In this document: one piece after another, positions 11,507 to 11,932 of the stretch
Layout of the letters: every line of letters begins with the position of its first letter
Numbering within the stretch: position 1 is the stretch's first letter
From: Candidatus Obscuribacterales bacterium
Lineage (GTDB): Bacteria > Cyanobacteriota > Vampirovibrionia > Obscuribacterales > Obscuribacteraceae
Length of the DNA: 64,000 nucleotides
Reading direction: 5' to 3'
NCBI GenBank assembly: GCA_020050835.1
Contig: JAGVKB010000039.1
Span: 62,001 to 126,000 of the forward strand
Notes under the pieces: generated by a model
What the model was told of the DNA's origin: nothing
Databases searched by the model: none
What the model saw: only the letters and a program-made list of their open reading frames with translations
Program-made: the position numbers and the translations under genes

Positions 11507-11875
11507 TTATCGTCCGGATGCGAGCGCCAGCTTTAGTACCGTTTTATAGGCCTCTTCGTTGAATCCGACAAGGAGTACACGCCCGCATCGCATAGTTGGT
11601 GCTCTCAAATTACCGGTTGGTCCAATTATGAGTTCGGCAATTTTGTCGCTTTCGCCTCTTTCTTTCTTGAGTTTCAAATGGACCAATTTAGTACCTTTAC
11701 TTGCGTAAATCTCGTCTACTTCTTGGGTGAGCGAGAGCGCTTCTTCTCTTGCGATTGGTACCTTTCTGGCATCGACTGTTGTTTTGGCTGTTACTTTGTT
11801 GCGCTCAAGGAACTCTTGAGCCTTTTCGCAAGTCATTCAGCCGCGGCGGTGATATTGCCAATCGATTGCGGACAT
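11507..11875 (-). CDS. ArsC-family selenoprotein (UGA read as selenocysteine)
   Basis: A 122-residue thioredoxin-fold protein of the ArsC/Spx-like family, probably a redox enzyme; the substrate is unknown. Translation from ATG 11875, which has GAGGA eight bases upstream, gives MSAIDWQYHRRG. An in-frame TGA (11839-11837) follows, then MTCEKAQEFLERNKV and the rest of an ArsC-like domain, including the family's Arg-containing RAPTMRCGRVLLVGFNEE. The TGA falls exactly where the family has its catalytic Cys, giving a UxxC motif (U-M-T-C). A seven-bp hairpin 22 bases after the TGA has the features of a bacterial SECIS. The ATG just after the TGA (11836) has no ribosome site and would yield a protein lacking the active-site residue and first beta strand. 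Reading the TGA as a plain stop is the alternative; the combination makes recoding more likely. The sel genes needed are not in this window. Confidence 0.82.
11803..11839 (-). promoter_or_regulatory. UGA codon and candidate bacterial SECIS hairpin
   Basis: On the minus strand the TGA (11839-11837) is followed after 15 bases by GCTCAAG, loop AGTTC, CTTGAGC (11821-11803). This is a perfect seven-bp stem with a five-base apical loop. There are 22 bases between the UGA and the loop, and a G is the second loop base. Both fit the known bacterial SECIS rules: a short apical loop, G among its first two bases, and about 16-37 bases from the UGA. The hairpin lies inside the coding sequence, as bacterial SECIS elements do. 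Confidence 0.7.
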
Positions 11876-11932
11876 GTCTTAAATCCTCATGTTTGGAAGG
11901 CACTTATATTGTAGTTTAGAGCGTCGACCTCG

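Follow-up and report, generated by a model that had tools for sequence, protein, structure and literature searches.

An ArsC-like gene from the Obscuribacterales with an in-frame UGA almost certainly read as selenocysteine

Selenoproteins with an ArsC-like fold and a UxxC motif have been published since 2006-2008, in the work of Zhang and Gladyshev (PMC1794560, PMC2398784), and are listed as COG1393 UxxC in PMC9312934. They include the 'Arsenate reductase 2' UxxC type (cd03032) and related selenoproteins, which have the ArsC-like fold and the UxxC in common with the protein studied here but come from marine metagenomes and delta-proteobacteria, the likeness being taken from their published descriptions. 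An 'ArsC family (seleno)protein' is also catalogued in NCBIfam (NF041106, ArsC_rel_Se_1). Spx, YffB and MgsR (TIGR01617) share the fold and have a CxxC at the position concerned, with Cys where the present protein has selenocysteine (Sec). Cyanobacteria were stated to be without the Sec trait in surveys of 2006 (PMC1794560) and 2022 (PMC9312934). Since a later survey (PMC9529120) noted that a Candidatus Melainabacteria genome encodes one Sec-containing protein, the trait is under-described in this lineage rather than unknown.

The gene described here was found in a 64,000-nucleotide stretch (the window) of a Candidatus Obscuribacterales genome, a 7.01-Mb draft of 154 contigs that is 95.7% complete. 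It occupies positions 11507-11875 of the minus strand, including the TAA at 11509-11507, and would encode an ArsC-like selenoprotein of 122 residues (MSAIDWQYHRRGUMTCEKAQEFLERNKVT...LASGR), in which Sec at residue 13 corresponds to an in-frame TGA at 11837-11839. A ribosome-binding-like site, GAGGA (11884-11888, minus strand), was read directly 8 bases before the ATG at 11875. The TGA opens a putative U13-M-T-C16 redox centre (UxxC; 11828-11839, minus strand), with Sec or Cys invariant at both positions of a 29-row alignment. The initial annotation had placed the gene, the GAGGA, the TGA, the MTCEKAQ segment and a hairpin correctly, as direct reading showed. It had also expected standard annotation to truncate the gene, and the mechanical ORF list indeed gave only a 109-aa frame at this locus (11507-11836, minus strand), without the first beta strand and Sec13. 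This truncated frame still scored 116.8 bits against NF041106, the match beginning no earlier than profile position 12. Its view that a start at 11836 would have no ribosome site and would lose the active site held equally, as no ribosome-site-like sequence precedes 11836 and the frame is without the first strand and the catalytic residue. The locus illustrates plainly how a standard gene caller can cut short a small, presumably redox-active protein and remove its catalytic residue.

The neighbouring genes encode a dihydrouridine synthase (Dus; divergent) and, downstream, a response regulator followed by a PAS/CHASE3 histidine kinase. This neighbourhood was considered as a functional clue and rejected, as the three neighbours are not shared at homologous loci. 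No arsenic genes were seen adjoining the selenoprotein gene, and a promoter and terminator scan found nothing on the minus strand.

Read through the TGA, the protein matched NF041106 at 143.5 bits (cut-off, 85) over the entire profile (1-107 of 107). It agrees with this family in size, in the TGA codon and in the place of the UxxC, and differs in nothing essential, having about 10 extra C-terminal residues and Met instead of Thr after Sec. Pfam ArsC (PF03960) was also matched (30.6 bits; cut-off, 24). With 35.7 bits against a cut-off of 75.05 the protein is not a member of Spx/MgsR (TIGR01617), and it scored below the gathering cut-off of glutaredoxin (PF00462; 18.5 versus 22.9 bits) and below the cut-off for Uxx-star. 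An AlphaFold2 model based on a 29-sequence alignment (pLDDT 90.6) exhibited a thioredoxin-like ArsC/Spx fold in which helix 1 (residues 14-25) begins right after residue 13. The nearest PDB structures, by sequence and by fold, were Spx, YffB and ArsC-related proteins; the fold matches had modest TM-scores of about 0.5. In distant ArsC/Spx-like proteins of the same phylum the Sec column holds Cys, as part of a CxxC (CSTCRKA, CTSCQKA). The window gene is a well-supported new member of the catalogued selenoprotein family NF041106, and no more than a new member, given the existing NCBIfam entry for the family and the earlier publications on ArsC-like UxxC selenoproteins.

Screening of genome contigs yielded 36 homologous loci, of which 35 include the Sec site. 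The codon aligned to the window TGA was TGA in 34 of these and TGT (Cys) in one (L012), and the TGA homologs span at least four phyla, represented by Planctomycetota, Myxococcota, Pseudomonadota and Obscuribacterales. In the L012 genome no tRNA-Sec was found above background, the best matches to the tRNA-Sec model being tRNA-Ser; this would fit a loss of Sec with a change to Cys, in an assembly that may be incomplete. The N-terminal strand before the TGA was conserved as IxWxYHRxGU, with Y8, R10, G12 and C16 invariant in the 29-row alignment, and residues 4-12, upstream of the TGA, were conserved across phyla. Because this stretch is conserved, translation is predicted to start upstream of the TGA. 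The residue after Sec was Met in no sequences but those of the window, L007 and L028, and Thr in most homologs. One locus (L016:2546-2893) combined the Sec-codon TGA with another in-frame stop, a TAG immediately following the Cys of the UxxC; it may be a damaged gene or a sequence error or misread, and not every homolog is therefore intact. In the gene tree, the window protein stood beside six Planctomycetota sequences (support 89), apart from two Obscuribacterales sequences. An origin by transfer was considered, and the tree support was too weak to decide it. Among 292 phylum genomes, NF041106 was over cut-off only in the source genome itself; since no other genome of its family was listed in that sample, this says nothing of the spread of NF041106 within the family.

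A bacterial SECIS-type hairpin was assigned at 11803-11821 (minus strand) on the basis of its conserved place and of compensating changes. The 7-bp stem (GCTCAAG at 11821-11815, CTTGAGC at 11809-11803) encloses the loop AGTTC (11814-11810) and starts 15 bases after the TGA. As RNA (GCUCAAG-AGUUC-CUUGAGC), it has the two features of the bacterial type, lying just downstream of the UGA and having a G in the first two loop bases. Taken alone, the window hairpin is weak evidence. Its energy was ordinary versus dinucleotide shuffles (z -0.76) and moderate versus synonymous-codon shuffles (z -2.24; stem length p about 0.10), where the mean z over 35 UGA sequences was -1.43. Comparable hairpins, defined as a perfect stem of at least 7 pairs that starts 10-20 nt downstream and has a G in the first two loop bases, followed 5 of the 2270 TGA trinucleotides in the window. 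No Rfam family was matched over the whole window.

The strong evidence for the predicted Sec is comparative, namely the TGA in 34/35 homologs together with a hairpin at the same place. Most homologs had a hairpin at an equal spacing from the TGA, with compensating changes. In 29 sequences aligned gap-free from the TGA, 27 cells retained the stem despite changes on both sides, versus 12.8 +/- 2.2 after shuffling, and stem covariation was 0.336, versus 0.177 in shuffled alignments (0/500 as high), in counts that ignore relatedness. A +1 slide scored nearly as high because in the members from Myxococcota and Pseudomonadota the pairing is shifted outward by one base (GCGUCCAA-GUUU-UUGGAUGC type) relative to those of the Planctomycetota type. 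The stem of L022 and L025-L027 was another, longer one that closed a larger loop, and L030 had a short stem only.

A selenium pathway had been predicted for this organism, and selA (555.9 bits), selB (342.1 bits) and selD (371.7 bits) were all found over cut-off in the same genome, along with a tRNA-Sec gene (selC) with the anticodon UCA (70.2 bits, over cut-off). The SelD protein is of the Cys type at its own catalytic position (GCAAK). TGA ends 14 of the 35 long open frames in the window and is the commonest stop among them; UGA is therefore not globally reassigned. The tRNA-Trp has the anticodon CCA, and tRNA-Sec was the only UCA tRNA found in the genome. Formate dehydrogenase was considered as a second selenoprotein and rejected, the match being under cut-off and without an internal stop. 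The remaining proposals of the initial annotation fared similarly well: its reading of the TGA as selenocysteine in a UxxC centre is backed by the TGA homologs, the conserved hairpin and the sel genes; the expected Cys or Sec in the TGA column was seen in close homologs (Sec or Cys) and in distant ArsC/Spx-like ones (Cys); and the hairpin proved both conserved and covarying.

Almost certainly, the in-frame TGA specifies selenocysteine and does not end translation. If it were a real stop, the gene would start at ATG 11836 and produce a 109-aa protein, with the upstream frame as a leader. The ATG directly after the TGA and the standard ORF list are in keeping with this, but it is highly improbable given the conservation of residues 4-12 across phyla, the confinement of that Met to the window, L007 and L028 where most homologs have Thr, the lack of a ribosome-site-like sequence upstream of 11836, and a product that would miss the first strand and the catalytic residue. 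Even less credible is that the locus is an ordinary Cys-type ArsC/Spx-like gene with a sequencing error or a nonsense mutation (a pseudogene). Errors do occur in draft assemblies such as the 154-contig one that holds the window, but the same TGA recurs in 34 of 35 independent homologs, the remaining frame is intact and conserved, and the full Sec machinery is present. We give the same minimal weight to UGA being read as another amino acid through a code change or a suppressor tRNA. A second unusual tRNA in the genome lends this idea something, but that tRNA has GCA and not UCA, which was found in tRNA-Sec alone, and both the use of TGA to end 14 of 35 long window frames and the CCA of tRNA-Trp argue against it.

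The reading we prefer, at a probability of about 0.95, is that of a small ArsC/Spx-fold selenoprotein that would acquire Sec13 by way of SelB and the hairpin and would act as a UxxC redox protein. SelB with Sec-tRNA(UCA), guided by the hairpin, is predicted to insert selenocysteine at position 13, the site occupied by Cys in Spx, YffB and ArsC-type proteins. Sec13 and Cys16 would then make up a selenylsulfide/dithiol centre of the UxxC kind where helix 1 of the thioredoxin-like fold begins. Family and fold suggest that its most likely job is thiol-disulfide-type redox chemistry, that is, a thiol/selenol function of the UxxC pair, in which the selenol would attack an oxidised substrate, Cys16 would resolve the intermediate, and a cellular thiol system would re-reduce the pair. 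A role as a true selenium-dependent arsenate reductase is unlikely. The ArsC-fold match (PF03960, 30.6 bits) points in that direction, whereas the nearest structures are Spx, YffB and 'ArsC-related' proteins and not proven arsenate reductases, and the neighbours are Dus, the response regulator and the histidine kinase, with no arsenic genes seen adjoining. 'ArsC' would here be the name of a fold; arsenate reduction is possible, and the context gives no pointer to it.

The main addition made by this locus concerns its lineage, a non-photosynthetic cyanobacterial relative with Sec in a group reviewed as being without it. A class-wide search (E <= 1e-8) detected tRNA-Sec in 39 of the 50 listed genomes of the window's family (f1) and in 3/3 listed genomes of another family of the same order; the tRNA-Sec genes checked had the UCA anticodon. 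Weak matches in family f2 (~48 bits, 86-87 nt, about tRNA-Ser size) were left out of this count; tRNA-Ser genes gave similar ~48-bit scores with the tRNA-Sec model elsewhere. With tRNA-Sec in 39/50 listed genomes of the family, the decoding of selenocysteine seems widespread in the non-photosynthetic cyanobacterial order Obscuribacterales. The L009 and L011 genomes (Candidatus Obscuribacterales) presumably belong to f1, as does the source genome, since their tRNA-Sec genes have contig coordinates identical to those of f1 members. Of all the genomes tested, that of L011 had the closest counterpart of a LepA-type protein in the window, at 79% identity. In the phylum-wide sample, selA was over cut-off in 8/292 genomes. 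Seven phylum genomes outside the class (G001, G007, G016, G026, G029, G044 and G053) had selA together with a UCA tRNA-Sec, and some of the seven are drafts with 7-9% contamination.

A second tRNA-Sec-shaped tRNA was observed in the source genome outside the window (G000:C17:124713-124808, minus strand; loci L046/L076; 54.9 bits; fold z -3.3). It has an 8-bp acceptor, a 5-bp T stem, a 6-bp D stem and a 10-bp variable arm, with the anticodon GCA and an encoded U73-CCA, and an ordinary tRNA-Cys is present besides, at C74. At E <= 1e-8, the remaining genomes of the family yielded no such GCA tRNA. It is conceivable, if quite doubtful, that of the two SelC-shaped tRNAs the GCA/U73 one brings Cys or Sec to hairpin-marked Cys codons via SelB, the UCA one serving the ArsC-like UGA; if true, this would give non-photosynthetic Cyanobacteriota a second programme of SelB-dependent decoding, one directed at sense codons. 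The second tRNA resembles the selC* tRNACys class (PMC7609411), which is described as having an 8/4 body, against 8/5 here, and as coming from other phyla.
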